The notes beneath the pieces are model-generated. The model ran no database searches and was not told where the DNA came from. It worked only from the letters and a program-made list of their open reading frames with translations. A stretch of DNA of 64,000 bases from Halichondria panicea. Lineage: Eukaryota > Porifera > Demospongiae > Suberitida > Halichondriidae. The stretch lies in assembly GCF_963675165.1 (NCBI RefSeq), contig NC_087392.1:4423442-4487441 (forward strand), written 5' to 3'. Shown here piece after piece: positions 5,133-32,476 of this stretch (positions within the stretch are counted from its first letter, which is position 1; the number at the start of each line of letters is the position of its first letter). A program made the translations under genes and the position numbers.

Positions 5133-5269
5133 TATGGCACGCCAAGTGTAACAAAAATAAATAGCGCTATAGGACGTCATAAAGTAAGGGAAACGTCATG
5201 CATGCAAGACGTGCTGTAATCGTTACAAGACGTGCTGTAACGTTACAAGACGTGCTGTAATCGAGTGCG
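5133..5269 (+). repeat. Element A terminal inverted repeat, left tip with subterminal tandem repeats
   Basis: This tip is the reverse complement of 32339-32476 with only about two differences. It opens with TATGGCACGCCAAGTG and GTAACAAAAAT, which are shared with the tips of element B. Three tandem units of 20-22 bp (GTTACAAGACGTGCTGTAA-like, about 5200-5262) follow. Tandem subterminal repeats of this kind are commonly transposase binding sites, but that is inference here. Bases 5264-5269 (AGTGCG) are the intact, uninterrupted version of the site into which element B inserted on the other side. Confidence 0.88.
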
Positions 5270-5310
5270 AGGCTCAAGGTCAAAAGGTGACTGGGTGTTC
5301 ATTAATTAAA

Positions 5311-7006
5311 ATGGTTGATCAAAGAGCTGGAGCTGGAGATCGAGTGTGGGGATGGGAAACATTTCTCCAAGAAATGGAGACTTTCCTTACTACGGTAGAT
5401 AGAGAAATCGATTATACTCAGTCTACTAGTTATGCCCAGTTCGTTATTGAGAGGTTTGAGGTTTGTATACATGCTCTATCTTCCCTTCGTGTACAAATTG
5501 AAGATGATGGCGATGATGAGACGATTGAAGTTTGCACGGCATTGAAGGAAATAATGGACAGTTGTGTGTTGCTCAAGACAATGTGGTACACTCGACTTGA
5601 TGAGTTGGATGCACACACAGACGGAGGCTACCAAGTTCCCCAGGTTGCTAGGAGAGTAGGACGTGGCCGTCCCCAGCTATTTATTTGTCAAGACCAGTTG
5701 GAATACCTATGTAGTTTAAATTTCACTTGGACTGAGATTAGTAAACTATTGGGTGTCTCTCGAATGACTATCTATAGAAGAAGACGGGAGTTCGGCATTC
5801 TAGATGTTCATAGTGCTGCAAGAAGTATAAGTGACAGTGATCTACGTACAAAGCTCCAACAGGTGCGTCGAGAAATGCCAAATATGGGAGAGACACTGGT
5901 GATTGGGCGACTACGGTCATTGGGATATGCTGTCACTAGACAAAGGGTGCGTAATGCTATCCACGCAACCGATCCCCTGAATGCAGCTCTGAGATGGAGA
6001 GGAATCCTCACTGCTCGGCGCCCTTACTCTGTTCCCTCGCCCAACTCTCTATGGCACATGGGTAAGTCATATATAGGTGTTGTGTGACCAGGTTTATGGT
6101 TAATGTGTGTCAATTAAGTTTTAGATAAAGGAGCCCAGATGTGTGTACATGCATGTATATAGGTTGGAGCCTTATTATTATAGTAGTAGCAAGACTTGTG
6201 TATACAATACATGCATACTAATCATATCTTGTATTCGTACAGATGGCCACCACAAGCTTGTGAGATGGGGCATGGTAACGCACGGGGCTATTGACGGATA
6301 TAGCAGACTCGTCGTGTTTCTTCGCTGTAGCAATAATAACACTGCCGAAACAGTTTATAATCTCTTCCTTTCAGCTGTCCAACGGTTTGGACTACCGTCA
6401 AGAATGCGATCTGACTACGGTGGTGAAAATTATCGTGTAGCAGCACATATGCTAGAGAGTAGAGGATATGACCGCAACAGCATGATAACTGGCAGTTCCG
6501 TGCACAACCAGCGGATTGAGCGCCTCTGGCGCGATATGCATCGTTGCGTAACAGTGATATTTTACAAGTTATTCTATTACCTAGAGCAACATGGTTACTT
6601 GGATCCTGATAACATGTTTCATCGGTATTGTTTACAGTACGTCTATCTTCCACGTATCAACCAGTCACTGAAAGTATTTATGGAGGGTTGGAACTGTCAT
6701 GGGGTTCGAACGGAACACAATCTAACACCACATCAATTATTTGTGCGGGGAGCACTTCAAATGCAGAGAAGAGGACTTCAAGCCCTAGACTTTTTCGAAC
6801 ATATTGATGAAATGTATGGTGTAGACGAAGAAATCAGTACGGATGATGACGATTACACAGTTCGTATACCCCCAATTGGTCTTGCATTGTCTGATGAGAA
6901 TATGGCTTTGTTGAAGGAAAGAGTAAATCCTCTGGCAGACAGCGATAATTTTGGGATAGAACTGTATGTTGAAACACTTACTTTTTTACGTACTTTGATT
7001 AACTGA
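5311..7006 (+). CDS. DDE integrase-type transposase, element A copy 1 (intact)
   Basis: Two exons, 5311-6061 and 6243-7006, are joined by a phase-1 intron with GT/AG borders, giving 504 residues. I chose the ATG at 5311 (MVDQRAG) over the in-frame one at 5287. An AT-hook-like RGRP sits at 118-121, a helix-turn-helix at about 140-163 (FTWTEISKLLGVSRMTIYRRR), and a retroviral-integrase-fold core follows. The catalytic triad is readable as D251 (WHMDGHH, split by the intron), D308 (SDYGGEN) and E343 (QRIERLW), spaced as D-34-E. The C terminus is acidic. The protein should bind the element ends and carry out strand cleavage and transfer. It is the only uninterrupted transposase of element A, since copy 2 has a stop codon. 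Confidence 0.9.
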
Positions 7007-7078
7007 GATTTGTTAATGAATGTGCAGTGCGTAATGCCAGTAATAATTACAAATTTATATCCAAGTTGAATGATGGTA

Positions 7079-7226
7079 CAGTGCATGGAACCCCTCTATA
7101 ACGGACACCTTTAATTGGAGAACAAAAAGTTTTGGCCGTTGTTAAGGGGTTGTTTTGTATGCAAACTTTTGGGACCTGGGTGTCTGGCCGTTATGTCGCA
7201 GTTGGCCGTTAAGAGGGGTTCCACTG
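7079..7226. mobile_element. 148-bp MITE with TA duplication (left-arm copy)
   Basis: The ends are inverted (CAGTG..GGAACCCCTC and GAGGGGTTCCACTG) and flanked by TA at 7077-7078 and 7227-7228. The same MITE sits at the matching place in the right arm (22229-22376), so it was already there when the arms were duplicated. The TA target suggests a Tc1/mariner-mobilised element. Confidence 0.8.
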
Positions 7227-7716
7227 TATATAATTTTTATCATTTATGTTAATGAATGTCTGTCAGATGCAGGTACACATAATTATATAGACACACTATA
7301 AAGAGTATGACTAATATTATAGTAGTACTGCCAATACACAATGTTAGGACGTATATTATTATTATACTGGAATAGGTTGCAAGTACGTAGCCACTGTATA
7401 TACACTTGGTAGATATTGTCATATAGTTTTACAGATGCTGTTTGTTAGTCTGAGTCAAATTTCTCATTGGCTTGTGGCACCGTCTTCAATTATACCTGAA
7501 TCCGGATAGAAAAACATTTGCAATGTGAAAAATTGCTACAATCCTATGTACAACCTACTGATTCATATAGCATTTGAACGTGGAACATTTGTGGAACAAT
7601 CATAATTATTACATGCATGCTTGCAACATGATAATCATAAGCTCGTGCAGATAACTATATAATTATATCTTCACTGTGACAAATGCAAGCACATGCATGT
7701 ACTACTTGCATGCATG

Positions 7717-8400
7717 TATAGAAGGTCTTGCTAATTTTGCATTCATAAGTTATAGGTGTTATATATAACAATTCTCCTGGGACCAAAGCTTGCATGCTTT
7801 TTATTGGACCTATATACCTACATCACTCAGTAATACAAAAATCACAGCGATGAATGCTTTACAATACAATAACATCGTCATAAAGGTAATAATTATGGCC
7901 AAAAAACATTGACAGACATGCATGCAGTGTTATCAATATTGCAAACGTCAATAGCTGTCCATTCTCCACAAGTACTCGCTTGACAAACAAGCTCGGAACT
8001 CAGAAACAAACACTTGGTATGAAGGGTATGTTGAGGATAGAATCAGGGATGGTGCACAGGTGAGGGCAATGGGTCTACGTGAAGAACCGGTAAGAGCATT
8101 AAATTCTAGAGATATTTTCGAAGAGGAACACACCGAGCTGCCAGTAACGAAGCGCAGAAAAGTTCGCAATTCATCCAGTCCCATATTTCCTATAAATTGA
8201 CGCAGATAACCTAAAACCCTATTCACATGTATTTTACACATAGTTATGTGGAAGGTCTTGCTAATTTGATATGCTATCATTATAATAGCTGTTTTATAAC
8301 AATTCTGCCTTTATACACATGTATATATACCAACCAAAGCTCACATGCACAGTATTTTGATTTTATAGGACCTACTGAGTGTTCTACGTAATTATATAAC
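7717..8400. repeat. Diverged direct repeat spanning the inner edge of the left arm
   Basis: Bases ~7717-7830 (AGAAGGTCTTGCTAATTT ... ATAACAATTCT ... ATTGGACCTA) recur in diverged form at ~8250-8400 (GGAAGGTCTTGCTAATTT ... ATAACAATTCT ... ATAGGACCTA). The second copy lies just outside the arm. So sequence resembling the HECT 3' flank was already present near the arm breakpoint, and it may have helped to set the break. Confidence 0.55.
7948..8222 (-). pseudogene. Antisense-oriented fragment of the UBX-HECT gene 3' end
   Basis: On the minus strand this encodes the last ~92 residues of the HECT domain of the gene ending at 21198, including the catalytic region ALTCAPSL and the C-terminal LWRMDSY, with no visible change. 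It begins mid-exon at the inner edge of the left arm and has no upstream HECT exons. An ORF does run a little further upstream, but that part is unrelated sequence. It is a by-product of the arm duplication, not a gene. Confidence 0.88.
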
Positions 8401-11400
8401 CAGCGTGCTGTCCACAAACTGTTCTCTTGCAGATGATATAAGGGGTTGTATGGGATAAATATGTAAGAGTGTATGGATTGGTAAGTGTATAAAAACATGA
8501 TAGTGACGATCAAAACGGATGCAGTTAAATTGCAAATGGGTTGTTTTCCACAATAATTATCAACAATTTGAACGAACACTGGACAGTCTTGATCAAGTTT
8601 CTAAAGGATGACGGCTGGCTTTTACCATCCACTCTTATCCAATTTGCTCTAATAGGAACAATTGTCGTGCAACAATATACATAACAAATTAAAAATTCCG
8701 ATAATTAATAGTATCAAGGGCGTATAAAAGAAGAGAGGGCATGCAACTCCACTATCAGTACACGTAGCTAGCAGAGTTCAAACGTGGGCGGAGGAATGTG
8801 TGCATTTGCATGCAGTGCTAAAAATAGAAATGTCTATTTTTAGTATTTCATGCACAGTCATGCACATTTATCCGCCCACGTTTGAATTCTGCTCTTGGAG
8901 TTGCATGCCCTCTCTTCTTTTATACGCCCTTGATAGTATTACGTACATAAGTACATAACAGCCAGCTGTATAGGTATAGTCTTCACAGTCATGTAATAAC
9001 AACTTACCTACAGCTTCTTTTTGCAACTCCGGGCCTATACTCAGTGAGGCTACTGAATCACCCGGGGAGTATACACATGCACACAGTTATTCTTGCCCGT
9101 TGGTATGTGGTTAGGTATATATGCAGTGGTTTATAACTGTGCTACATGCAGAACCTGCTTTTACATAGGAATGATATATACGTCATGTATAGGGAATCAT
9201 ATACATGCATGTATAGGGAATCATATATATACAGATCCCTGTGGTTAGGGATGTTGATGCATGCATGTATGTTTTTCACATGCTTTTCATGTATATATCA
9301 CTTGTTTACATACGTAAAATCTATTTTCTTGCCATGGCCATACATGCAGCTGCAATTTAAAACTTCTTTGTCATTGCAGCATATAGAGCTTGAGTAACGC
9401 ATTTAGAATGAGTTATATAGACTATATCGATGTTTAGAAAGGACCCTTTTCATCAGAGAGGCACCTTCAGGGGCATGCATGCATGATCTCTCTTGAGTAG
9501 CCAACATGTATATAGTCTAGATTAAGAATTCATTCTCAACTCTATAACTTATGTATATACTCTTTGTTCTCAGTATGCCTTTTTATTGCTGTCATATAGC
9601 AACTGGCAATAAAATCATTATTGACCAATCACTCGGTTTGTATGGATACACTGAATTCTACCCTCCGGTATCATGCACCTGGACTAACATCCAGACGCTC
9701 CTGCATGTCCAAAGTAATCCCCCATGATGGAACATATATATAGCACTGCAGTAGCTGGTGACGTTTAACAAGAGTCCAACTGTAATTGCTGAACGAGTTT
9801 GAACGTACGTTTGGCCTAATATATATAGCTATACACTGACCAAACCTATATACAAGAGCATGGTTACATTTACCCCACTTGATACCCCATGCATGCATGC
9901 AGGGAGTTGCAACTAACACTATACAAGGATATAAAAATAATATACTGTCACAAAAAGCACATGCGTGCATGTCTTAACTATATCATGCAGGCATGCATGC
10001 ATGCATGTATACATTATATACATGCAGAGTATTTTACACCATAATTATATATAATTATAGCGGGTAAATTTGGCAATTTTCATTTGACGATGTTGCATGG
10101 AACAGCGCCCTATATAATATTATATGAACCTTGTGAGTTCGCATACACTCAATGCCTTTAATACTGCAAATCTTTGAGCATGCGCAATTAAAAAGGCTGC
10201 AGTAACACGCAGCGCGGGAACAAATATCTGGACAGCGATTTAGTAAATCAGGACACCGATTTAGTAAAGCGTGAGACCGGTACGTGAGACCGCTTTAATT
10301 ATAGTAGTGGGACACTGATATAGTGAAATAGTGAAGTGCATGACGTGGATTAGACATGCAGTTTTTACACATGGTGTTTTGACACAAACGACACTCCATA
10401 GTATACTACGGCACGGCATTATTAACCACGTGGGATATACTGGGCATTGGCGATTTTTAATTTTTGGTGACCCTCATGCATGCACCTTCATTCGCCAAAT
10501 CGACAATTACCCACTATAATTACCCACTATATACAGTATATATGTATACATGTGCACACTTACTCAATGATCAGTCTTGGTGCATGCATGCATCAGATAG
10601 TGCATTTTGGGGGCATCAGTATAGAGCTCACAAAAGGCTATTGAAGGGTTTTTGAGGTAAGCAACTTCATCTGAGTGTCGAGATCTGGGGAAAATAGATG
10701 GTCTGTGATTTCCAGCATGAGAAGGTAATTGCTCCAATGTGGGTTATCTTCAGGAACAAATTGGGCCACCATGCATGAAAGGAAACAGGCGGCTCAGTAA
10801 CCATGCACGACTGCATGCTGAAGGTAAATGCAAATCAATACCTTTTCTTTTGTTTCAGCTACTGTGGAAAAACACTGACGACAAGGCGGTCTGTATATGC
10901 ACTCGCTCCTTCCTTAAGCCTCCCATAAATGAACTAGCAGGATTATCATTGCATGCTAGCAACCATTGGTCAACCACTTCAGAGTGCCAAAAACTCTGAG
11001 GGGTTCACTCCCATGTATACCCACCACTTCTACTATACTGATTATCATTGACCCTGCATGCCCCACACTATTCCTACACTATTCGGAATTTCCAATATAA
11101 TATTGACTGAGTCCTATACACTATTACTTTAATTCATCGTCCTAACACTATATATAATCTGCAGCTATAATAATTATTGCACGAGAACATAATTATAACA
11201 TCAAATCTATATAAGGTATAGGGGTGGGCACATTATCATACTGGTATAATGATGGGCACACTTTCGACAGCACTGCCAAACATGATTCTACAGTTACTGT
11301 AGCACAGTGACATTCTGCACACATGCATGGTTGAGACGATTTTTGTAGATTCAATTGTAAGCATGTAGTGTAGTCACTCTGTGATGTTACATTATTTTTC

Positions 11401-11697
11401 ATGGTTGAAATCACTGAAATGGGTTTGAGCATATAGCACTTTTTCAAAAGTATTGCAAAGCATAATTATATTGGGAACATTTCTGAACATAATAAATGAT
11501 GGCCATTTCTGCAGCTTGCCAATTGTTGGAGTAGCCTGACCACAGCATGCATTCCTTCCTCACTAAATTGTAACACTTTTTGCTTCTGCTTGCTCCGTAT
11601 CCCTCCTGCGGCTACGCCTCGAGGCATAATTGAGTCGAATTATGTCATAATTGTGAGCATGCGCAGTGGACTATTAGACCATGTGCCGGAGAAGATG
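8223..11697. other. Element A interior without a recognised gene
   Basis: No supported coding region is seen. The stretch is AT-rich with many ATGCATGC runs. It holds a 222-bp foldback at 8713-8934. The ORFs at 9146-9397, 9671-9970, 10331-10655, 10739-10999 and 11193-11447 have low-complexity or unremarkable translations and no paralogue here. The promoter of the HECT gene should lie toward the right end. Confidence 0.5.
8713..8934. repeat. Foldback element, 222 bp, ends ATCAAGGGCG
   Basis: The outer ~39 bp are near-perfect inverted repeats (ATCAAGGGCGTATAAAAG ... CTTTTATACGCCCTTGAT), followed by a second inverted block (GTTCAAACGTGGGCGGA / TCCGCCCACGTTTGAA) and a central AAAATAGA/TCTATTTT hairpin. 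A relative with similar tips and an inner GCAACTCCA block lies at 44769-45087. Confidence 0.75.
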
Positions 11698-14600
11698 ATG
11701 GCAGAGCTAGAGATCGAGAAGACTTTCAGCCCTAATATCGTTCCATCGCAGAAGAAAGTGCTAGTTTGCTTTGGAGAAAGAAAAAGAGAGGTGTCCTTTA
11801 GCAGTGAGGGAGGAAATGGAGAGTTATTGAAGCAAACACAGCTCGTGTTTCGAGATATAGATCAAAACAAAAATTTAGTGCTTCAACTGAAAAGCGAGGA
11901 GTGGGACGGACTGTTCTTAGACGTGACCGATAATGTGTCCGTCGCTGATAAATCCGTACTGAGAGCTGTTTTGCCAAATCAACCCACAGCCAGTGCATCT
12001 GCATCTGCATCTGGTAGTACGTTGAGAGAAGAGGTGAGTACACTCTTTGTTCTAATTACAGATCACTCCAATAGTAGAACCAACTGTTAGTTTTAATTCT
12101 TCTTTTGTTCTACTGTAAGACCTTGATTTAAGGTGACCCTCCAAATATGCGACACCCTCGAGCTTAGACAATTTTCTGACCTCTAAAAGTAGCGACAGGT
12201 GCGTTCACAATTATTTTTTAGTGTCGCGTCCTAAATAGAGGTAAATGTAGCCACACCTATATCCTCGATTCTAGGCCACTGGAAAATCAGTGTTTTAAGC
12301 GGCCTGAAATCGAGGCTAGTAGACTTACCTCCAATTACCTCTAAATATGCGACACCTGGACTTCAATATAATTTTCGACCTCCAAAAGAAGCGACCTCCT
12401 TCGAAAAAGTGTCACCTTAAGTCGAGGTCTTACGGTATTCTAATATGAACCATTTAATATGAACCATTTCCATTTCGTAATTATTTTATTGTGGTTCTTA
12501 GCTAATTAGTTAGCACAAACCTCAAAGTCTGCAAGCCAAGCTCATAAAGCTTTGCCACCTCCACCGAGGCATCAGCACCCCGCGGTGCTTACATTATTAA
12601 CCCGAGGCCGAGCCGCGGCCACGGGTTATAGTAGTCTGTTGGTTTGTATGTTGGTTTGTTTGTCTGTGACATCTGAGTCTGCTCACCTGGCTGCCAAGGT
12701 ACTGCGTTTACAGTATGGATAGCCTCCACACAACAAGTTATTAGTTTCAATAGTGGCAGATTTTGGTGTTGAAGCTTCGTTGTCGAATAAAAGCTAGCAA
12801 AAGCTAAGAAGCTTGAACTCAAGGGGTAGCTAGCTACATCCGAGTCTGCTCACCTGGCTGCCATAGCACTGCGTTTACAGCATGAATAGCCTCCACACAA
12901 CAAGTTAACAGTGGCAGATCTTGATGTTAAAGCTTCGTTGTGAAGAAAAGCTAGCAAAAGTTAAGAAGCTTGAACTCACGGGGTACGGTTAGCTCTAGCT
13001 ACATGTGGCCTTTATTCGAGGCACTCTAATTACAGCCACGTGGAGCCTTATTTGGAATAGACTACTCGGGGACTTCCTTTGCTGGCTCTACTGTGAGACT
13101 ACTCCGGGTCCCACGCTGCATGTGTAAAACTCCAGGCAGCTGGGATCCTACTATACCGGTCCAGGACTCCCAGTGCATGTCAGGTGCCTTATTTGTAGCC
13201 TTCTTTGCTGACTAGACTCTGCTATGATCCTATAGTCCTGCTGCTCATAGCGCTCAAATCTGTATAGTTTAGGCTATATAGGTTTCTGTGTTCACAAGTT
13301 TTATTGCTCCTGCCTGCTCACTATACGGTTAAGTTGAGGCTCTGCTGGGAGTGAGTGGAGAACCTTGCCTGCTACATACTACTGCATTTATTGTAGAACA
13401 GTCTTCTGGTTTCTTATTATTGTCAACAGCCTAGCCGAGGGTTAGCACTTCAGTGCTCTAGTTTGTTTGTGATAGCCTATTCTACTCACCTGGATGCCAT
13501 GGCGCTGCGTTTACAGCATGGATAGCCTTCACACAACAAGTTATTAGTTTTAATAGTGGAAGATTTTTATGTTAAAGCTTCGTTGTCAAATAAAAGCTAA
13601 GAAGCTTGCTTCTGAGTCTGCTTACCTGGATGTCATAACGGTGCGCGTTTACAGCATGGATAGCTTTCACACAACAAGTTGTTAGTTTCATCAAGAGTGC
13701 ATAAGAAGAGAAGAGTATCGAACTACCGATACTGTACACAAACACTGTGCACAAAGTAACATGACTCGCACGTGATGAAGTATTGTAAACTTACTAGTAA
13801 TCTCCTAGTAAATGTTAACCGTGACGTTTTTAGGGGTGTGGTAAATTGAACAATATAATATGAGCTAGCTAGTTTCCCGTTTAGCGATCAGAGCTGCTCA
13901 CTGCACACTGATAGGAGACGATCCCTTCACAAAAATCATCTAAATAGAGACAATAGTCAGTTGATTCTCTTCACTTGCACTCTTTACTCACTATTAACAA
14001 ATTCTGTGCGTTGCGTAATTATGCGCAAACGTCATCAATTGCGCGTTGCTCACGTGCAATTGACCGGATGTCACGTTACTTTGTGCACAGTGTTTGTGCA
14101 GAGGTATTGGTAGTTCGATACTCTTCTCTTCTTATGCACTCTTGGTTTCATAGTGGCAGATCTTGATGTTAAAGCTTCCTTGTCGAATAAAAGCTAGCAA
14201 AAGCTAAGAACTAGAACAGCCACGTTGGACTAGCTACACGTGGCCTTTATTCGAGGTGCCATTTACAGCTGAAGTGATCCTTTACCAGGAACATTGGTAA
14301 ATGGAGAGCTCGCCCTCGTCAAAATTCTGAGAATTCAGGACGGGAAACTAAGTTCTTTGTTGGAGTGGCCTAAAGTAGAAAGATAGAATTATGATTGTGG
14401 TTGTTTCTTCTTTCATGTTCCTTGCTTATCTTAGCCCCATGAGCCATTTCTAAGAAGCCTGCTATGACTCAGGCCTTTGCATCTATGTGCATGTCTCATA
14501 ATCATGCACTACTAATCTCAGCTTGCCTCAATTTCTACTTTTCTCCTATTTACTTGCTGCTTAGCCAGCTACTTCCATGGCATCCTCATGCATACTACTA

Positions 14601-17600
14601 CATTCTCTTTTCTGGTTTTTATATATTCATGTCAACAGCTAGCCGAGGGTTAGCACTAGCCTCGTTCCCAGGCCTTACTTTTTCTTGCTGTTGTCACTGT
14701 TCATCCATAAACAAGACATAGTGAGGCAGCAAGGAAAGAAATGGGCGTACAGTTAAGAAAAAGTAAGGCCTGGTTTGGGAAATCGCGTGATCCACAAGGA
14801 TTTTTATGAACGTGGGCGATATGTAGCCCACAATCGTGACGTAAGGTATTCTCCCACGCATTCAGAGTAAGACTGTACTGTACTGCACTGCACTGAGACA
14901 ACCACCAAGCTGTGCTGCAAGTCAGATCAGAGAACCAGCATGGCCAGCTCTGGTGGCAGTAGCTACCTGCTATATGATAATGATGACTAAGCTATTCTAC
15001 TATAGCATGTAGAAAGACACAATAGTGATAGAATCTAAACACACAATCTAGACTAGTAGATCATCTAGCTAAGCCTAAGGTATAGCTAGCTATAGTGCTT
15101 GCAAACTTCCAGTTCCAAGTCCATGTCCAGCTTGCTGCAGGCAAAGTTTTATTAGTCGTAGACCTCTGCGTGGGCAGTCCAACATCTCTAGCTCAGTATG
15201 CCCACGCTCATTTTCACCCTTCTACCACCCTTCTACCCTCACGCGACTTCCCGATACAGGCTCTCCTTTTTCCTAACTTTACGTCTATTTCTTTCTTTAT
15301 TCCTCCAATTAATACCGTATTTTATCTCATTGAACGAATAATACAGTATTTTATCTTATTGAACGATTGTGATAAACAGAAAAAGGAGAGCCTGTGTAGA
15401 GGCTAGGTTAGCACTTCAGTGCTCTAGTTATTATTATTATAGAGGTTCAAATGACCACACCCCTACAGTAGATACAATACCGGAAGTAAACAATTATGCT
15501 GCTGATATACTTCAATAGAACACTACTTCGGGTACATACATTTTTGATTTTTGGAAGAAGCTAGAGGCACGTACAAAGAGTTCTTTTGTCACACTGAGTA
15601 CCTAGAATGCTTCTAATAATAGCTAAGACTGTGCAACTCATCGATGGTCTCAAGTGATATAAACATGTAGAATGTATGGTGTAGCTGTAGATAATTGGCT
15701 AAATAATAGTTATAGGCTGAGTCCAAGGTCTCTATGGGATTATGAGACCTGAAGGCCAGAGGCTGTAGTGTCCCGAGGGTGCTACTAAGGGCCTGATGTC
15801 TCATAATCCCATAGTGACCGTTGGACGAGGCCTATAACTGATTTAGAATAGCGCTAAGCTATTAACACAAAGGAGACTTTGCAACCAAGAGCTTCTACAG
15901 GCTTCTAGCAACGTTAAAGCTTCGTTCTCCGAGCTATGTCTAGTTTACATAACAAAAAAAAAATGAAGGCCGTTTCCGTCTCTTGAAATCATGCGTAGCA
16001 AAACTGCTAATAGAAAGTTGCTACTCTACTTAGTAGTTAGCTCTGTTAGAGCGCTAGCTATTGGTAGCTGCATGAGTGATCAAAAAGCTGCACTGCACAA
16101 CACAATAACTTTTACTTTTGCAAGTAGTCGCACCTCTGTATTGATTTTACAGCATCATCGTTACTATGACTTCAACATAAATGCCATAGGCAAGTACATA
16201 TAATGGACCTCCATAGAAGACCTCTGCTGAGGTGGGTCTCAAAGTGAAATAATGGACCTCTCAGTGACCAATCAGATTGCCGTATTTGTACAAGCATTTT
16301 CTAAGTAGGGTTATTTAATAGTATGGGACCAGGGCTTCAATTAAACAATCCTTTTACGACCATGTGTATTTTGTTTACAGTCTCGTAGTGTGACATCTAA
16401 AGCTGTGTCTGGCTTAAAGCGTATTTCGAAGACTAGTGGTGCCTGTGCGAAAGTGTTGGCAACTATTTTCCCTTCAACAAAAAGTGTTCCACCAAAAGAC
16501 CTCAATGTTTTTGATCCCCTGGACGATTGTGTTGCTCAATCAGCGCAAAACAAAAAAAAGTCGACCAGAGTCAAATCAATATCTGTCAAAGTAATTCTTG
16601 TACCCGGGTGTTCCACGTTAGTTCTACCCAAGGGAAGGAAGAGACTGAAGTTAATAGCAGATAAACGCATTGAGGCTATCGAAATTAAGCGAAGTATGTC
16701 TCCTGCTGATGTTCAAAACAGAATCAAACGTGGATTCAAGCACCTTAACTTGCAAAATTGGGAATATTTAGTTGCTGATGCGGGGAAGCTGTCAGTATCC
16801 ACAAACCAGGCCCCAGGAGGGGAGATAGTGGATAGACGAGGGGGGCTCTACATTAGGGAGAAGGAAGAAAAGGTAAATATTATACTGGTATCTGTTATGA
16901 TAAGCAGTACATAAACTTCTCTTTTGTTCAACCCAGACTGCAACAGTAATCGCATCCACTTTCCAAGGAACATCGTCTAGTACTGCTTCCACTTCCCAGG
17001 GAACAGCATCAATCATTGCGTTCACTTCCCAAGGAACATCATCTAGTATTGCTTCCACTTCAGCATCAATCATTGCGTCCACTTCCCAAGGAACATCATC
17101 TAGTATTGCTTCCACTTCAGCATCAATCATTGCGTCCACTTCCCAAGGAACATCATCAAGAATTGCATCCACAACATCACCAAGCATTGCATCCGTTTCT
17201 TATTTACAGGAAATAAGCACACCGATACTCAAGGTATGGCTGGTCATACTAGTAGTAGGTGTCACACTGTGAAGTAAGTAGCTGGTAGTAGATTTTTATG
17301 TTGCGAGTTTGTTGACTGAATAATAGAGACTTTTTTATACGGATGTTGAATGATGTGTTTATTCTTCATAAAGGATGATGCGAGCTCCATTATGTCATCT
17401 GATGAAGAGTTGCCACCTGCCTTTCTGTCTAGAGTTGTTCCAGGAAAGGTAGTGTATAGAGAATTGAAATTATTTTGTTGATTTTTACATACAGGTTAAT
17501 GAGAGTGTCGAACAAACAAGGATGATTGTTGCTGAGCAGGATCGTGTGTATGAAGAAGGGTTACGCATTGACCAGTCAAAAGAGCGAAAACGTCTTTGGA

Positions 17601-21208: not shown

Positions 21209-21346
21209 ATTGATAACACTGCATGCATGTCTGTCAATGTTTTTTGGCCATAATTATTACCTTTATGACGATGTTATATTATTGATAACACTGCATGCAT
21301 GTCTGTCAATGTTTTTTGGCCATAATTATTACCTTTATGACGATGT
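21209..21346. repeat. Two-unit tandem duplication (~69 bp) in the right arm only
   Basis: A unit running from TTGATAACACTGCATGC to TTTATGACGATGTTAT occurs twice in a row. The left arm has a single unit (about 7872-7940), so this duplication came after the arms. Confidence 0.8.
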
Positions 21347-22029: not shown

Positions 22030-22228
22030 TATATGACAATATCTACCAAGTGTATATACAGTGGCTACGTACTTGCAACCTATTCCAGTATAATAATAAT
22101 ATACGTCCTAACATTGTGTATTGGCAGTACTACTATAATATTAGTCATACTCTTTATAGTGTGTCTATATAATTATGTGTACCTGCATCTGACAGACATT
22201 CATTAACATAAATGATAAAAATTATATA

Positions 22229-22376
22229 CAGTGGAACCCCTCTTAACGGCCAACTGCGACATAACGGCCAGACACCCAGGTCCCAAAAGTTTGCATACAA
22301 AACAACCCCTTAACAACGGCCAAAACTTTTTGTTCTCCAATTAAAGGTGTCCGTTATAGAGGGGTTCCATGCACTG
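22229..22376. mobile_element. 148-bp MITE with TA duplication (right-arm copy)
   Basis: This is the inverse of 7079-7226, with TA at 22227-22228 and 22377-22378. It is shared by both arms and so predates their duplication. Confidence 0.8.
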
Positions 22377-22448
22377 TACCATCATTCAACTTGGATATAA
22401 ATTTGTAATTATTACTGGCATTACGCACTGCACATTCATTAACAAATC

Positions 22449-24144
22449 TCAGTTAATCAAAGTACGTAAAAAAGTAAGTGTTTCAACATACAGTTCTATC
22501 CCAAAATTATCGCTGTCTGCCAGAGGATTTACTCTTTCCTTCAACAAAGCCATATTCTCATCAGACAATGCAAGACCAATTGGGGGTATACGAACTGTGT
22601 AATCGTCATCACCCGTACTGATTTCTTCGTCTACACCATACATTTCATCAATATGTTCGAAAAAGTCTAGGGCTTGAAGTCCTCTTCTCTGCATTTGAAG
22701 TGCTCCCCGCACAAATAATTGATGTGGTGTTAGATTGTGTTCCGTTCGAACCCCATGACAGTTCCAACCCTCCATAAATACTTTCAGTGACTGGTTGATA
22801 CGTGGAAGATAGACGTACTGTAAACAATACCGATGAAACATGTTATCAGGATCCAAGTAACCATGTTGCTCTAGGTAATAGAATAACTTGTAAAATATCA
22901 CTGTTACGCAACGATGCATATCGCGCCAGAGGCGCTCAATCCGCTGGTTGTGCACGGAACTGCCAGTTATCATGCTGTTGCGGTCATATCCTCTACTCTC
23001 TAGCATATGTGCTGCTACACGATAATTTTCACCACCGTAGTCAGATCACATTCTTGACGGTAGTCCAAACCGTTGGACAGCTGAAAGGAAGAGATTATAA
23101 ACTGTTTCGGCAGTGTTATTATTGCTACAGCGAAGAAACACGACGAGTCTGCTATATCCGTCAATAGCCCCGTGCGTTACCATGCCCCATCTCACAAGCT
23201 TGTGGTGGCCATCTGTACGAATACAAGATATGATTAGTATGCATGTATTGTATACACAAGTCTTGCTACTACTATAATAATAAGGCTCCAACCTATATAC
23301 ATGCATGTACACACATCTGGGCTCCTTTATCTAAAACTTAATTGACACACATTAACCATAAACCTGGTCACACAACACCTATATATGACTTACCCATGTG
23401 CCATAGAGAGTTGGGCGAGGGAACAGAGTAAGGGCGCCGAGCAGTGAGGATTCCTCTCCATCTCAGAGCTGCATTCAGGGGATCGGTTGCGTGGATAGCA
23501 TTACGCACCCTTTGTCTAGTGACAGCATATCCCAATGACCGTAGTCGCCCAATCACCAGTGTCTCTCCCATATTTGGCATTTCTCGACGCACCTGTTGGA
23601 GCTTTGTACGTAGATCACTGTCACTTATACTTCTTGCAGCACTATGAACATCTAGAATGCCGAACTCCCGTCTTCTTCTATAGATAGTCATTCGAGAGAC
23701 ACCCAATAGTTTACTAATCTCAGTCCAAGTGAAATTTAAACTACATAGGTATTCCAACTGGTCTTGACAAATAAATAGCTGGGGACGGCCACGTCCTACT
23801 CTCCTAGCAACCTGGGGAACTTGGTAGCCTCCGTCTGTGTGTGCATCCAACTCATCAAGTCGAGTGTACCACATTGTCTTGAGCAACACACAACTGTCCA
23901 TTATTTCCTTCAATGCCGTGCAAACTTCAATCGTCTCATCATCGCCATCATCTTCAATTTGTACACGAAGGGAAGATAGAGCATGTATACAAACCTCAAA
24001 CCTCTCAATAACGAACTGGGCATAACTAGTAGACTGAGTATAATCGATTTCTCTATCTACCGTAGTAAGGAAAGTCTCCATTTCTTGGAGAAATGTTTCC
24101 CATCCCCACACTCGATCTCCAGCTCCAGCTCTTTGATCAACCAT
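22449..24144 (-). pseudogene. DDE transposase, element A copy 2 (one premature stop)
   Basis: The exons are 23394-24144 and 22449-23212 (minus strand), with the same splice borders as copy 1 and near-identical sequence. The Arg codon CGA at residue 306, two residues before the second catalytic Asp, reads TGA here, a CpG-to-TpG type change. Translation would stop before the catalytic core is complete. Another difference is Asp to Gly in the acidic C-terminal part. The remaining N-terminal product would keep the helix-turn-helix and could act as a DNA-binding competitor, which is speculation. The gene converges on the HECT gene that ends at 21198. Confidence 0.88.
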
Positions 24145-24185
24145 TTTAATTAATGAACACCCAGTCACCTTTTGACCTTGAGCCT

Positions 24186-24191
24186 CGCACT
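24186..24191. repeat. Target site duplication of element B, left copy (CGCACT)
   Basis: CGCACT precedes the terminal TATGG of element B. The second copy is at 32339-32344, beyond the later MITE insertion. The uninterrupted site is seen inverted (AGTGCG) at 5264-5269. Confidence 0.9.
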
Positions 24192-24339
24192 TATGGAATG
24201 CCATTTGTAACAAAAATCAGAGGCTCGCAATACGCGTTCTGAGCTCTTCGCGACGCGTTGCGAGCTGCTCACGACGCGTTCTGAACTATAAGCCTCGCAA
24301 CGCGTTCCCAAATTCTCGCGACGCGTTGCCAGACAAAAT
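24192..24339 (+). repeat. Element B left terminal inverted repeat, ACGCGT-rich
   Basis: About 148 bp match the inverse of 31431-31566. The tip shares TATGG.A.GCCA and GTAACAAAAAT with element A. The inner part holds several ACGCGT palindromes set in AACGCGTTSC-like units. One unit more is present here than at the right end. These could be transposase sites; they also resemble MluI cell-cycle box sequences and lie just upstream of both genes of the element, so a promoter role is possible. Confidence 0.88.
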
Positions 24340-25283
24340 TTCTTTGCCGACAAAAATCAGGTGATTCTAACACGTGATTCTACCTAGTCCTAGCCACGTG
24401 GCTGCAATATCAAAAATTGCAAAAAAATCTTGGCAGATACTGGTAGTAAAGCTGTGTTAGTTTGTTTGGGAGAAAGAAAAAGAGAAGTTTGTTTTAGAGC
24501 TAATTCCACAGAGGAAGAAGAATGGAAAGCGTTTATGGATGCTGTGCGCTGTACGTTTGCTGATGTGCTCCCAGGGTCCTCATCAGGATCATCAGGCAAT
24601 TTGATCGTTCAATTAAAGAATGAGAATTGGGAGGGAGAATTTGTTGATTTCCCCAAAAACTCCAAGATTACACACCACTCTGTGCTGAGGATTATTCCTC
24701 AAAGTGAATCCCTTAAGGTATAAAATAGTTAGAAATTTCTATTCCAGTCTTTATTAATTATGTGTTTTTTCAGGGAAAAGGGTTAGCTGAGAAAGGCTCC
24801 TACCTGTGCAAAAAGATGGGGAATCCTTCCCTGACTCAGAAGGAAAGGTTGGGACAGCTTTTCCGAGGAGGATCTAAGATTGGAGGTGGATCTGGAAGTA
24901 GAAAACGAAGTTTTGACCCCCAATCAGAAAGCGTAGTCCTTTCAAACCAGCGGAAAAAAAGAGCTGCCATAAGGAGTGTTCGGCCAGTAACGAGGGAGGT
25001 GATGCTTTTGAGTGAATACACCCCAAAGATCCCAAAGGGTAGATTCCGGACTGAATTGAAAGACAATGGACGCATGAAATCCCTCCAGTTCACCCGAACC
25101 ATGACACCAAAGGAAGCCAGTGATGTAATCATGAAAGGGTTCCACACTCTTGAAGGATTTTCGAAGTTTCAGTATTTGGACACCAACAAAGATGTGCTTG
25201 ATCTGAGCAGTAATCAAGTTTTGGCCGGGAACGATGTCATTGACAGACGAGGTGCTTTATACCTGTGTGAGAAGTGGAATGAA

Positions 25284-26068
25284 GTGAGTGCCAACCAGTT
25301 TATTACGCGTACTCACCTGGAAATGTGCCCCTGGTCTAAAACTAGTCTATAACTTTAATGTTTATTTCTTGCCCTTGGCCCCTCGGGCTATTAGCTGCAC
25401 ATCCCTCGTGCATGTATAATAATTATGCTTATTGCCAGCGGGTATAGTAGTCGTCTGGTCTGTTTGTGACAAGTGAATATACTCACCTGGGCGCTGCGTT
25501 TACAGCATGGAACACAACAAGTTATTAGTTTTGAAAGTGGTAGATTTCGACGATCAAAAGCTAAGAAGCTTGAACTTGCACGTTGCCCGACCTTTATTCG
25601 AGGTAGATCACATATTTGCAGCTGAAGTGATCCTTTACAGGCCTCTAGAATTGTACGTGTTGCTTCCTCCTCTAGTTTGTATAGTGCCCCATAATTATAA
25701 GTGCATAGTAGTTTCGTATTACCAGCCTGTTCTCATTAGTAATGTGGGCGGGAGAGAACAGTCTGGTATCCTCTTAAAACTCTCTGTGTCATGTTATATC
25801 TATTATATCATGTGCGTACTATGCTATAATTATGCATGAAGTGGAGTAAGCAACTCCCTGCACACAGACGGGCATTGTGATATAATTGTGTCATTCTACG
25901 TAGACACATACATGCATTGCGCAAGTAGAATTCTGATTGTAGCCCACCTGCCTAGCCATACATGGTCATGTAAACCCACTGAGTGTTTGTTAGTATTTAT
26001 AGTAGTTGGGGCCGTATTTTCGGATGAGTACTATAATTTAAAGCTTAATTCACTGTTATCTAACGCAG
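25284..26068. other. Intron 2 of HECT gene B with an R1 repeat
   Basis: About 25474-25605 is an R1-related segment (GCGTTTACAGCATGGA, ACACAACAAGTTATTAG, AAAGCTAAGAAGCTTGAAC). No gene is supported; the ORF at 25507-25839 runs through this repeat. Confidence 0.6.
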
Positions 26069-26134
26069 GGTGTCATTGACGCTACTACTGAGAGAATGGA
26101 AGTCACTAGCACACTGCCTCCCAGTTTGTCTGCC

Positions 26135-26790
26135 GGAGACTCCACTCCAAGTGTGTCTGCTTCTGCAGGTGTGTCTCCTCTCACAACTCCTCCAAGTGTG
26201 TCTCCTCTCACAACTCCTCCAAGTGTGTCTCCTCTCACGACCCCTCCAAGTGTGTCTGCTTCTCCAGGTGTGTCTCCTCTCACGACCCCTCCAAGTGTGT
26301 CTGCTCCTGCACCTCTCACGACTCCTCCAAGTGTGTCTGCTCCTCCAGGTGTGTCTCCTCTCACGACCCCTTCAAGTGTGTCTGCTCCTCCAGGTGTGTC
26401 TCTTCTCACGACTCCTCCAAGTGTATCTGCTCCTCCAGGTGTGTCTCCTCTCACGACCCCTCCAAGTGTGTCTGCTCCTCCAGGTGTGTCTCGTCTCACG
26501 ACTCCTCCAAGTGTATTTGCTCCTCCAGGTGTGTCTCCTCTCACGACCCCTCCAAGTGTGTCTGCTCCTCCAGGTGTGTCTCCTCTCACGACCCCTCCAA
26601 GTGTGTCTGCTCCTCCAGGTGTGTCTCCTCTCACGACCCCTCCAAGTGTGTCTGCTCCTCCAGGTGTGTATCCTCTCACGACTCCTCCAAGTGTATCTGC
26701 CCCTCCAGGTGTGTCTCTTCTCACGACTGTGTCTGCTTCTCCAGGTGTGTCTCTTCTCACGATCCCTTCAAGTGTGTCAGAAGATATTAA
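26135..26790 (+). repeat. 45-bp minisatellite coding the linker of HECT gene B
   Basis: About a dozen full or partial copies of a 15-codon unit, PSVSAPPGVSPLTTP, lie in frame within exon 3, along with shorter 18- to 30-bp variants. The repeat keeps three reading frames open, which explains the overlapping ORFs here. High Ser, Thr and Pro content suggests a flexible, possibly O-glycosylated or phosphorylated linker. Copy number is likely to vary between individuals. Confidence 0.9.
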
Positions 26791-27522
26791 CCAGAGGAGA
26801 GAACTTATACGGGAACAGAACTGGGAATATGAGGAAAGCCTTAGAGCAGATGAAGAAAAGGTATGCTCGTAATGTTTATAGTATAGTAAGTAACTTACCG
26901 AAATCTATTAGGATGCAAGAAGGTTGATGGACAGAGAGAGGGTAGACGTGAGCTTTTGTACTTATTAATTACTTCCATGTCTAACTTTATAATTTTAGAG
27001 ACTGGCTAGTTTAAGGGAGCAACTGGCAGAGAGGCTTGTCGCCAGATACTGTATGGAGGGGCATGGGAAACAACTTATGTTGAGACTTCCAGATGGGAAG
27101 ACGTTATCTGTTCGATTTCTTCAAGGAACCTAGATACAGGTAAGTTACAGCTGTCACGTAAAAGTGCTTACCATGCATGCAATATTTTTGTAGGTGTTGT
27201 ATCAGTACGTTTTTGTCAAAGGTGGAATTGATGTTCCTTTTGGAATATTCAACCTTTTCCCTCGGACCCTGCTTGATCACAACTCAGATACTCTCGTTGA
27301 AGACATTAGAGATGCAGTGCTAGCTGTTGAGACCAGTGGAGACAACTCTAACTCTGTCTTGTTCAATCCCACAGATTTCATTGAAGAGGTAAATGTTAAT
27401 GCATTGATTATTGTGTATGCTTTCTGCTAGTCAATAAATAAAGGCATGCACGCACTAATTGGTACTTTTTGGATTTTAGGGTATGACTGAAATAAGTGAG
27501 GTGGAGAAGGTTTTAAAGAAAG

Positions 27523-27963
27523 GTACTTACACACATTCTTACATTACACATAATTATTATTAGTCTTGGCCCCCCCGCCCCCGTAATTTTTGAAAAAAAA
27601 ATTTGGTACTGAATTGTGGTGGGTTTTGAGGTTGCCTTTTCTCGTTTTGTATTTGAGTTAAGTTCTAAGGGTGTCAAAATTGGGTTTGGTTTTGTATTTT
27701 TCTATGTGCACGAGTCAGCAAAACGTGTGTGTGTGCTCTTGGAGTACTTTTGTTTTTCTGAAGTAGTAGGACTTATTATTTTGTCTTGTAAGAGATCAGT
27801 AGATGTCAGTGACAGTGCTATTTTGGTCCATGCATATATAATTATACTCAAACACAAAATTCTCTCTAAAATGAGGGGTATCCCCTCCCCTCCCCCCCCC
27901 CCCCCGCTGTATGACACCTTGATGATGCATGGGTTGACTTACCCTTCTTTTCTATTCATGCAG
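27523..27963. other. Intron 7 of HECT gene B, with a poly-C tract
   Basis: No gene is supported. A C-rich run at about 27886-27905 includes at least 13 consecutive C. It matches in position the much longer intron 8 of the element A gene. Confidence 0.6.
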
Positions 27964-29054
27964 CTGAAACAGATCGTGAAGCATACTTAGAAAGTATCAC
28001 TACCTGTCGCTGGAGGATTACTCGCACTGTTATTCGTTCCGACATATTTGACTCTGTTTTATCACTTTACAGTGGTGAGCACATCAATGCTTTGCTCTTA
28101 GAGAATCCGTTAACGATCCAGTTTGAAGGTGAACAAGCTATTGACCTAGGGGGTGTTTGCCGCGAAATGTATTCCGCTTTCTTTGAAGAAATGTATAGGA
28201 GAGCTTTTGATGGCAACATCCTTTTGTCTCCAGTGGTACACCCCCAAATCGATTTTGGTGTCCTACCAAAGATCGGCACCGTCATCTCACATTGTTATGT
28301 TGCTTGTGGTGTTCTACCGATACGAATAGCTTTCCCTGCTCTAGTTCAATGTCTGTTGGGATTGTCAGCTGTGGTGTCAGATTTCATTCTCTGTGAAACG
28401 TTCATTGACAGCCTCAGCACATACGAGGCTGATAGCTTCAAACAAGCATTTGCTCAGATTACAGATGATCCTCAGCGGAAAAGCTTTAGTGAGGAGTTAT
28501 CCAGCAAGCTCATTGCAACATTCAGTCGATTTGGCAGTAGGACATATCCTACACCTACCAAGCTGAAGCAGATGCTGCTCCAAGTTGCTTCTTACGAGTT
28601 TTTGTTAAAGCCCGCTGCTGCTATCACAGCAATTAATCGAGGAATTCCACCTCTTCATGCCCCCTTTTGGCAAAAGCTGGGTGTTGCAGGAATTTTAGCT
28701 GTTTATAGGGCACAGACTGTGTCTCCAGCAAAAGTTCTCGGTATGCTCGATGAAGAGCAGGGGAAAACAGAGAATGAAGAACGTGTATTAGGTTACCTCC
28801 GGCAGTTTGTTGCTAGCTTATCTGAGGAAGATCTCCGGCTGTTTTTAAGATTTTGCACTGGCAGCACAGTATGTAATGGAGGCAAACTTGGTGTATCATT
28901 CAATGCACTAGAAGGTGTTGGTCGCAGGCCCATTGCACACACGTGTGAGCCTTGTCTTGAGTTATCTTCCAATTACTATACATTCCCTGAGTTTGTTACT
29001 GAGTTCAAGGCTTACCTTGCCAACGAATACTCCTGGATTATGGATGCTCTTTGA

Positions 29055-29728
29055 ATTAATAGACTGAACGTGTTACTCATTATTTTATCATCATTAATGT
29101 CACTTATTATCGTACAAAGGCGTTGACTCACTTTTTTTTGCATGTGTTGTGTGATTCCCAAATAATTATAATAATGGTTTTTGTGTTAAAAACAATTTTG
29201 GAAGAATTTAACAAGATTATATTTCTGACCTGATATTTGGGCTACATGCCTCTGTGTACCTAATTAACGGTGACCCATGCACGCTGTGCTTTAATAGTCA
29301 TAAAATAAAGTCAAAAATCAAGACAATTATAATTATAGGTCACAATAAATAACTTTGCAAGTGGTGGCACATTCGAATTCCATGTAGTCTAAGGGCCAAT
29401 TCTTACAGATCTAATATAAAAGGCTTGCATGTGCCTATAAATTATTATTCTCAACATTGATTCTAAATTAAAGGTGCCTATTATGCCAGCAGAGCTGTGG
29501 CTATAATTATGACAAAATCAATGTGCGGTTTTTCCTGATAGTTTGCCACAATTATTATACTTCCATGTACATAATATTGCTTAGGTAATTATAATTATAA
29601 TTATGGCCATGCTTGCAGTACTGTGTATAAATAAAAAATTCATTACATGCATGTTTGTGTTGACAAAGCCTAAAACACAGCAGAATTATAATTATTATTA
29701 TGTACAAAACAGATTGATTTTTGTACGA
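29055..29728. other. Convergent 3' spacer between HECT gene B and transposase B
   Basis: AT-rich DNA rich in ATAATTAT is seen here. Likely polyadenylation signals include AATAAA at ~29305 on + and the inverted TTTATT near 29629. No ORF of note is present. Confidence 0.55.
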
Positions 29729-31308
29729 CTAAAAGGTAGCAAACCATCCATGTAAAAGAGATAAAGCTCTCTCATATTTCTCTATTGCATAGTTGTCGCT
29801 AGGAGATAGTGGGTCAACCTGGGTAGTTAAGAGCTCTACCTGTTCTGATGACAACTGAACTCTTGACTCTGGAACTTGAACACTGGTTTCTTGTTCACCA
29901 ATCAATGAGTAATCATCTTCGTCATCTGCACCATCAACTCCATACGTGCCGTCTGTACTATCGAGGAAGTCAAGTGCCACAAGGCCAGAATGCCTAAGTC
30001 TTAAGCAACCGGAAACAAACAGTTGCCTGGGCGATGAATGGTGCATGGTGCGAAGACCATGATTATTCCACGCTGCCGCGAACAATTTAATACTTCTTCT
30101 TATCCTTGGAAGATACACAAAGTGCAGTGCAAATATATGCATTTCATTAAGGGGATCCAGCAATCCATGATATTCTAGGAAATAAAATAAGCGGTAGTAC
30201 ATTTTCGTTACACTTCTGTGCACATCACTCCAGAGGCGTTCGATCCTTTGGTTGTGGGTCGAACTTCCAGTAATCACACTATTCCGATTCAAACCATGAT
30301 GTTGTAACATATGTGCAGCCACTCTAATATTCTCCCCACCATAGTCGCACCTAATACGTGATGGAAGGCCATACTTAGTAGCAGCTTCTAGGAACAAATT
30401 GTAAACTGTATCGCCTCTATTATTTGTGCTGCATTCAATAAAAGTAATCATTCGGGAGTAGCCATCTATACAGCCATGGGTGACGAATCTCCAGCGAATG
30501 AGTTTGTGGTGCCCATCTAAAGAGTAAAAACACACACACTCACATTGATTACACATCTATAATAATTACTAAGCTTACCTAAGTGCCAGAGGGAATTAGG
30601 TCCGGGAACTGAATAAGGTCTTCGGCTATGTAGATTCCCTTGCCAACGAAGAGGAATAGTAAGTGGATCTATTCGACGTATACAACGTCTACACTGTTCA
30701 CGAGTGACATCATATCCTCTGGAACGTAAAGCTCCAAGAACAATCACCTCTCCAATATATGGCAACTCTGCCTTAAGATCTTTTAAGAGTGCCTCTAAGT
30801 CATCATCACTCAGTCTATTTAATGGATTATTCAACATACCACAATCAACACGCCTGCGGTAGATGGTCATTCGTGTTACACCCAATAGCAAAGCAATAGA
30901 GCTCCAAGTGAAATTCAGAGACTTGAGGTACACCAACTGCTCTTTAGGGATCACGAACTTTGGTCGTCCCCGTGCACCAGTATGTTCAAGGGGAGCACTG
31001 TACTGTGCCTCGTGGGAACTAACATTTATGTTTCTTTCATAATCTGTCCATACAGATAACAATGACGACAAAATGTCAAGTAGCTCAGCACACATGTGAT
31101 CATAGGTTTCAAATGAAGGGTCAGCTGAATAACTACTGTCTTCAATGGTAAGGGTTAGTACTTGTTTTATTCGAGAAAGATTGGTGAAACAATTGCGGAT
31201 CCTTTCAATGGCATATTCGGTAAATGACTCACTGGCATAACCTAGTTGTTGTTCCAGACTGCGTAGGAAACTGCCTACTTCCTCGAAGTACTCTGACCAG
31301 CCTGCCAT
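29729..31308 (-). CDS. DDE integrase-type transposase of element B (intact)
   Basis: Exon 1 is 30579-31308 and exon 2 is 29729-30516 on the minus strand, giving 505 residues. The phase-1 intron falls at exactly the same codon as in element A (WHL-D-GHHK). An RGRP hook, a helix-turn-helix (FTWSSIALLLGVTRMTIYRRR) and the DDE core are visible; the catalytic residues are D244, D301 (CDYGGEN) and E336 (QRIERLW), with the same D-34-E spacing. By eye, more than half of the core residues match the element A enzyme. The tail is again acidic. It begins 122 bp inside the right terminal repeat. With copy 1 of element A, it is one of two uninterrupted transposases in the window. Confidence 0.9.
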
Positions 31309-31430
31309 AAAAGCTAAATTCGATATTCAGTGAAGAGAGTCAGTCTGTCTGGACTCCGCCCAACTAGGCACTGCACCATAAATAGTCTGACCTTGGCTGA
31401 CCTTTCTGTCGCAATTGTTTGCATCACCTC

Positions 31431-31566
31431 ATTTTGTCTGGCAACGCGTCGCGAGAATTTGGGAACGCGTTGCAAGGCTTATACTCATTATAGTTCAGAA
31501 CGCGTCGTGAGCAGCTCGCAACGCGTATTGCGAGCCCCTGATTTTTGTTACAAACGGCATTCCATA
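31431..31566 (-). repeat. Element B right terminal inverted repeat
   Basis: This is the inverse of 24192-24339, with one ACGCGT-bearing unit missing and a few extra bases (CTCATTATAG region). It ends GGCATTCCATA at the border with the CG of the target duplication. Confidence 0.88.
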
Positions 31567-31568
31567 CG

Positions 31569-32331
31569 TAGACTCGCAAGCCACTCCCTTTTCTCTGATT
31601 GGACGGGGGCGGGAGAAAAGGGACTGGTGACTCTGGGCTACAGCTTGTGTAAATCAGGAATGCTATTAAATATTAATGTCACGTGCAAATTATCCAATTT
31701 ATTCTGATGCGTCAAAAGCTAAAGACACACAGAAGACAAGTATACAGATCTATTTAGCCAGCCTTTTGATTTTATAGATCCTTGTACCAGTGTCTGTTGT
31801 GCCATAACTTGTGGATTAGCATGGAACAGCTGATGAACGTAGAAATCTTGGCAGTCCTTCTTTGAACCGAGGAGTGGCAGCGATTTAAGACAGCTTGTAC
31901 AAGTCTGACTACTCTCAATTCAACTGCTGCCGTCTGCCATTATCTGTCTTGTATTGTACAGGTTATTAAAAGCTTTAGGCAACCAATGACTTTCGGCTGC
32001 CAGTTCTCATCACGTAAAACTAAAACAAGCTAATCTCTGCTGGTGTCTTAGATGACTATATCCTAGCTGAATGCCTGATGATGTTATTACTCCATCATCT
32101 TCTCTTTTCTAGCACTAGCATCCATTCTTAAACTGTAGCTAAGAAGCCCGCGATCACTTTTGCAGGCTACGCAATTCTACTTAACCTCACGCAATTTTTG
32201 GATCACGTGGAAAAATCAATGAATAATCTCTACCCAAATTCTGGTAGAGACACAAAATGTGTCCCAGAGTCACCAGTCCCTTTTCTCCCGCCCCCGTCCA
32301 ATCAGAGAAAAGGGAGTGGCTTGCGAGTCTA
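31569..32331. mobile_element. 763-bp Mutator-like non-autonomous element
   Basis: The 69-bp perfect terminal inverted repeats start TAGACTCGCAAGCCACTCCC (31569-31637) and return inverted at 32263-32331. A 9-bp duplication TTCCATACG lies at 31560-31568 and 32332-32340. Long inverted repeats with a 9-bp duplication are the hallmark of Mutator-like elements. No transposase is encoded. The target spans the last seven bases of element B and the first two of its target duplication, so this insertion is the youngest of the three nested here. Confidence 0.92.
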
Positions 32332-32338
32332 TTCCATA

Positions 32339-32476
32339 CGCACTCGATTACAGCACGTCTTGTAACGTTACAGCACGTCTTGTAACGATTACAGCACGTC
32401 TTGCATGCATGACGTTTTCCCTTACTTTATGACGTCCTATAGCGCTATTTATTTTTGTTACACTTGGCGTGTCATA
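32339..32476 (-). repeat. Element A right terminal tip plus right CGCACT copy
   Basis: CGCACT (32339-32344) is the second copy of element B's target duplication and also belongs to A's terminal repeat. It is followed by the inverted tandem units (TTACAGCACGTCTTGTAAC-like) and the tip CACTTGGCGTGTCATA. It matches 5133-5269 almost perfectly. Confidence 0.88.

Follow-up and report, generated by a model that had tools for sequence, protein, structure and literature searches.

The window analysed here is a 64,000-nucleotide stretch of the genome of the sponge Halichondria panicea (C16:4423442-4487441 of the 131.5-Mb assembly that was searched throughout). It holds two DNA transposons, elements A and B, in each of which a gene for an integrase-type transposase faces a gene for a ubiquitin ligase with UBX and HECT domains. 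The original prediction described A and B as separate elements, each with its own 6-bp target site duplication (TSD) and one convergent pair of these genes, and proposed that the transposon keeps the ligase as a lasting part of itself. The features are as follows, in window coordinates.

5127-5132, no strand: left TSD of A, GGGGTG, 6/6 identical to the right TSD
5133-32476, no strand: element A, IS3EU/GingerRoot-like and palindromic, with two transposases, and with B and a small insert lodged in it; terminal inverted repeats and 6-bp TSD
5311-7006, plus strand: left-arm transposase of A (exons 5311-6061 and 6243-7006)
11752-21198, plus strand: UBX-HECT gene of A (conserved pieces 11752-11970 and 16510-16878; UBX 17867-17992 and 18036-18176; HECT 20176-21198)
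22449-24144, minus strand: right-arm transposase of A, the mirror of the left arm (coordinates mirrored), with one TGA in the second exon
24186-24191, no strand: left TSD of B, CGCACT
24192-31566, no strand: element B, 7.4 kb, nested near the right end of A
24448-29054, plus strand: UBX-HECT gene of B (conserved pieces 24448-24696 and 24912-25289; UBX 27008-27151, with an in-frame TAG, and 27194-27340; HECT 28023-29054)
29729-31308, minus strand: transposase of B (exons 31308-30579 and 30516-29729)
31569-32331, no strand: palindromic insert of 763 bp, separating the right end of B from its TSD
32339-32344, no strand: right TSD of B, CGCACT, displaced by the insert
32477-32482, no strand: right TSD of A, GGGGTG, 6/6 identical to the left TSD

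Element A is real, as its tips, TATGGCACGCC and TATGACACGCC, and its perfectly matching TSD demonstrate; the terminal inverted repeat measures about 137 bp, with 98.6% identity over 138 aligned columns. Element B carries TATGGAATGCC at both ends and has tips and a TSD of its own, in line with the prediction, but it lies nested in A. Its duplication CGCACT is likewise present on both sides, although the right copy is displaced. The six bases directly to the right of B, CGTAGA, mismatch the left TSD because the 763-bp insert spans the junction, having entered two bases into the right TSD. This insert possesses a 9-bp duplication of its own (TTCCATACG, at 31560-31568 and 32332-32340), from the length of which we take it to be MULE-like. 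The uninterrupted target site of B, AGTGCG, is seen in the left arm of A.

The predicted convergent pair of transposase and UBX-HECT genes is present in both elements, but A has two inverted transposase copies. Its inverted arms, 5264-7425 and 22030-24191, are 100% complementary (rounded), and the similarity extends in pieces up to 8222 and 20924. A fragment of the HECT 3' end sits in the left arm, which suggests that this arm is a copy of the right one. Searching with the A transposase returned inverted pairs on several contigs, and A-type transposase exons are 93-99% identical among near-identical multi-copy families. Since A-type ends on C8 and on C9 have their own matching 6-bp flanks (GAATCG and GCTCCG, respectively), the two-transposase unit of family A itself seems mobile. 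The flanks of a pair of A-type ends at C1:4125-4154 differ and share no duplication, and no pairing partner was obtained for the A-type ends at C1:8834, C3 and C13. An isolated right-end-like sequence (ending in GACACTCCATA) was also observed inside A at 10375-10400; it may be a third element's tip, or else the end that A originally had and lost.

The transposase core corresponds to PF24764 (rva_4), with E values of 3.6e-77 in A and 1.7e-78 in B, and is preceded by a helix-turn-helix domain, HTH_23, which exceeds its Pfam cut-off in A and matches weakly in B. The catalytic triad of the B transposase is D244, D301 and E336, with 34 residues separating the last two. A single-sequence structure model of the transposase was too poor for use, its predicted local distance difference test (pLDDT) score being 38. 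In the ligases, the HECT profile PF00632, whose cut-off is 23.9 bits, reaches 24.6 bits in A but falls short in B, at 22.1 bits; a moderate structure model of the B HECT (pLDDT 68.7) found HECT domains in 50 of the 50 PDB matches listed, with query-normalised TM-scores of 0.25-0.48 among these. The UBX profile PF00789 scores 35.7 bits in A and 22.2 bits in B (cut-off 21), the FPR motif is present in both, and the top two matches of the B UBX among PDB sequences are UBX domains, both weak (E 0.03 and 0.06). Both ligases have an intron-split UBX domain and a HECT domain in one large exon, and two N-terminal pieces that match no Pfam family above cut-off. As had been noticed from the letters of the window, the proteins of A and B are well diverged (HECT and transposase each 51% identical), and the conserved ligase pieces follow an identical order. 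Tandem repeats of 45 bp with Pro/Ser/Thr-rich coding lie between the N-terminal pieces and the UBX of B (26056-26872), and a stretch looking similar occurs in another element, L070.

By their tips, duplications and transposase, the elements are assigned to the already known IS3EU/GingerRoot superfamily. They do not fit Polintons, which possess many genes, including those for PolB and capsid: B is 7.4 kb long, and its list of open reading frames (ORFs) has none of PolB size, although no PolB profile search was made. Members of IS3EU/GingerRoot are described as having TA..TA termini, usually 6-bp TSDs and an integrase-type DDD/E transposase, and Ginger1 and Ginger2 as having TSDs of 4 or 5 bp (available text of PMC10045372). 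The present elements have TA..TA termini, an integrase-type DDD/E core with a helix-turn-helix-like N-terminus, and 6-bp TSDs in A, B, L068, L070, L071 and at the A-type ends on C8 and C9; Ginger1 and Ginger2 were rejected on the TSD length.

The association of the two genes extends over the genome. The PF24764 profile gave at least 156 matches, and those listed were merged to 114 loci, on one of which each of 150 re-entered matches (150/150) falls; three pairs of loci lie less than 3 kb apart and are possible double counts. HECT genes were sought with PF00632, the HECT of B and two G2E3-like HECT sequences, of which 95/95, 39/43, 110/110 and 21/128 matches were entered, respectively, the last being those at new places. 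A HECT match was found within 6 kb of 73 of the 114 transposase loci, and 65 of these 73 are convergent and downstream. Random placement gave a mean of 1.5 and a maximum of 8 such loci in 2000 trials, with approximate lengths for some contigs. PF00632 and the B HECT alone had recovered 53/114 loci and missed the ligase of L071; the G2E3-like queries raised the count to 73. As far as one genome allows, this supports the ligase as a lasting transposon component, more widely than had been predicted, and the refuting case that most relatives lack it did not hold among well-preserved copies, with HECT within 6 kb at 52 of the 66 best-scoring loci.

Three further best-scoring loci have HECT on a wider radius or closer look. 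Of the 14 best-scoring loci with no HECT match within 6 kb, seven belong to a single family, taken up below. Among the others are an A-type copy whose HECT lies 7.7 kb off, C10:3899528, where a weak HECT match is 9.9 kb distant, L077, which is 1.8 kb long and has its transposase truncated, and L078, in which HECT is decayed. The C10:3899528 transposase family is intact and is followed downstream by an unrelated ORF (L072 4320-4887). Viewed from the ligase side, the 39 of 43 B-type HECT matches form 31 clusters, 26 of them within 10 kb of a transposase; of the five others, one has an A-type end on either side, and four are short or broken or show 25% identity. Four of the eight non-convergent cases, with HECT on the strand of the transposase (on C15, twice on C4, and at C7:4194514), were rejected as exceptions: in L046-L049, opposite-strand transposase remnants lie just beyond the HECT gene, a two-transposase layout like that of A. 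Viral contigs searched with the transposase and with a G2E3-like HECT gave no match. Three short transposase contigs filed under the metagenome-assembled genome (MAG) of a Cycloclasticus symbiont of another sponge (L074-L076) have no ligase in their 3.4-4.2 kb; their transposases are of the sponge type, and they are probably host DNA contamination.

Three more elements, L068, L070 and L071, contain both genes inside perfect 25/25-bp tips and 6-bp TSDs (GGAGGT, CCCGGC and CTGGTA, respectively). The tip scan required TA at both ends, and it found no tips in the fetched slices of L069, L072, L073 and L078. The HECT profile is over its cut-off in A, L068, L069, L070, L071 and, barely, L078, and under it in B, L044 and L062, while a HECT motif with the catalytic Cys is present in 11 of 11 elements (by pattern in B and nine others, and in the sequence of A). 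UBX-like exons occur in six families, namely A, B, L044, L070, L060 and the C4/C15/C7 family; those of A, B and L044 exceed the Pfam cut-off. In L068, L069 and L071 the HECT is G2E3-like. The ligase gene of L069 corresponds to a RefSeq gene model and has what we take to be a C2HC finger and a UIM-like motif, neither with a Pfam match above cut-off; one ligase of this kind is annotated in RefSeq as LOC135336110. Relatives of the G2E3-like HECT were found in Corticium and, among the 120 proteins listed out of 162, in several cnidarians and a mollusc, and some clusters of these relatives contain many member sequences.

The ligase largely follows the transposase in descent. In a comparison of 11 elements, HECT distances track those of the transposase closely (Mantel r 0.876, permutation p 5e-5). 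Two of these elements, L046 and L049, are near-duplicates, and the correlation persists without L049 (r 0.749, p 1e-4), without both (r 0.772, p 5e-5), among the seven UBX-type elements (r 0.892, p 8e-4) and without the four elements with the shortest transposase pieces (r 0.768, p 0.0013). The two trees concur in their main groups. Between A and B, nonsynonymous divergence (dN) is 0.47 for HECT and 0.48 for the transposase, with synonymous differences per site (pS) of 0.77 and 0.81; other ligase pieces evolve faster than HECT (dN 0.53-0.83). In seven further HECT comparisons, nonsynonymous differences per site (pN) of 0.29-0.43 stay below pS of 0.71-0.87; synonymous sites are mostly saturated, hence no dN/dS ratio is given. 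The prediction suggested measuring constraint on HECT genes inside elements; between A and B, HECT is as constrained as the transposase, and in three other pairs slightly less so.

Taken together, the intact form of this diverse superfamily, as read from these copies, is a pair of facing genes, one for an integrase-type transposase and one for a HECT ligase whose front end bears putative domains related to ubiquitin: UBX in two family groups, and the predicted C2HC finger and UIM-like motif in the G2E3-like gene of L069. A ligase that lies inside the tips, is widespread among the superfamily's copies in this genome, keeps its catalytic Cys motif, has descended with the transposase and is under roughly transposase-like constraint probably has a job for the element; we put the chance of this at about three in four.

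Several observations weigh against this conclusion. No HECT match lies within 6 kb of 41 of the 114 loci, many of them fragments, and seven well-scoring HECT-less loci are one family with a common TAA within the core of the transposase. L071 takes different positions in the HECT and transposase trees; the predicted agreement of the trees holds in the overall correlation and not for every element. In the three other pairs, dN is 0.47, 0.65 and 0.56 for HECT and 0.37, 0.59 and 0.49 for the transposase, HECT being slightly less constrained. The HECT piece of L060 has no Pfam match; UBX is under its cut-off in L070 (18.0 bits) and L060 (20.3 bits), is represented in the C4/C15/C7 family by one weak tblastn exon (E 0.006-0.011), and was not found in the G2E3-like elements. 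The first UBX exon of B has its in-frame TAG ahead of the likely donor site, and the ligase copy of B may be broken; with this TAG and the TGA in the right-arm transposase of A, the copies A and B are partly decayed. Finally, the single host HECT compared falls, in a small tree, beside the UBX-type ligases, between these and the G2E3-like ones (weak support, 0.686), and on this account the element ligase may have been acquired twice.

The last point would suit a passenger origin, in which host HECT genes were captured by chance, perhaps twice, and are functionless for the element; the two HECT types with a host HECT weakly between them and the minority of loci without HECT matches are what it would predict. 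It is nevertheless very improbable, given that place and orientation are kept in 65 of 73 cases, that co-inheritance, constraint and the catalytic Cys motif are maintained, and that the one host HECT compared is 14-21% identical to the element ligases. Still harder to credit is an artefact of neighbourhood or assembly, with HECT genes merely near transposase genes: A is a 27-kb nested palindrome of a kind that assemblies can confuse, yet compact elements with perfect tips and TSDs contain both genes, and the A-type ends on C8 and on C9 each lie between matching flanks of their own.

If the ligase does serve the element, it would act in trans, attaching ubiquitin to proteins that sit on element DNA, and its UBX forms would recruit p97/Cdc48 to pull the tagged proteins off. 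As UBX is undetected in the G2E3-like elements, a p97 role cannot be general, which argues that the putative common function is ubiquitylation itself and not p97 recruitment. Integrase-type transposases leave stable complexes on their product, and Mu needs ClpX. For this reason the element's own transposase-DNA complex is our first choice of substrate, somewhat short of an even chance, and host silencing or defence proteins are the next, a possibility but an unlikely one. Put as a rival in its own right, the latter holds that the ligase counters silencing or defence by ubiquitylating host chromatin or small-RNA pathway proteins. The front-end domains vary between lineages, as though substrates vary, and the TET/JBP genes of fungal IS3EU elements are interpreted by their author as an escape from methylation silencing (PMC12730594, as far as its text was available). 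The equal dN of HECT and transposase between A and B shows no fast HECT evolution, though other ligase pieces are faster, and we regard this account as doubtful. A ligase that restrains the element, keeping copy number low by transposase turnover, is improbable: co-inheritance and common constraint suit such a dedicated transposase partner, but the ligase-bearing elements still amplify, as the multi-copy A-type families attest.

A more general proposal, which we hold to be less likely than not, is that animal IS3EU/GingerRoot transposons are generally two-gene elements whose transposase would depend on a HECT ligase of the element, a module that would clear element DNA by ubiquitylating and extracting protein and would be p97-coupled in UBX lineages. 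If this is true, a large part of the expanded and unexplained G2E3-like HECT repertoire annotated in invertebrates and fish would consist of transposon genes. A cut-and-paste DNA transposon is commonly assumed to need hardly more than its transposase; in the present elements a second core gene, for a ubiquitin ligase, is kept across families with transposase identities of only about 40%. This opens to testing whether transposons of eukaryotes direct the ubiquitin-p97 system in transposition or against silencing, and many HECT gene copies now counted as 'host' genes of animals could turn out to be transposon genes.

Outside the elements, the window has an adjoining NLR-type gene with a NACHT domain (56-3853) and, at 35566-63114, several related genes with a protein-kinase-like half and kelch-like repeats, recognised by eye.

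Among known proteins, the G2E3-like animal HECT ligases resemble those of the elements in the HECT domain and in an N-terminal beta-grasp-like stretch (by eye); a mollusc protein, P0198, and L069 have in common GGFELLRC, IRPIQK and a CxxC..HxxxxxxC stretch. An unclassified repeat of Cottus fish with a blastx match to G2E3 (PMC5638112, in the text available) is a lead only. No report of a HECT gene in IS3EU/GingerRoot was found in the open-access literature as available, subscription papers and Repbase entries lying outside its scope. The words 'hect' and 'ubiquitin' occur 0 times in the accessible text on the superfamily (PMC10045372), whereas most well-preserved copies here have a convergent HECT gene. 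One parallel is fungal: IS3EU elements of rust fungi and Tuber carry TET/JBP dioxygenase and alpha-kinase genes, the alpha-kinase opposite the transposase and TET/JBP between them, and the TET-bearing families of rust fungi likewise have TAYGG..CCRTA tips and 6-bp TSDs. Their accessory enzymes differ from those of the sponge elements, 'hect' and 'ubiquitin' again occurring 0 times in the text available (PMC12730594). The VANC gene of Arabidopsis VANDAL transposons is likewise a second gene that aids the element against its host, but, according to the part of the source available (PMC10398659), VANC is a sequence-specific anti-silencing protein, unlike the HECT ubiquitin ligase described here.

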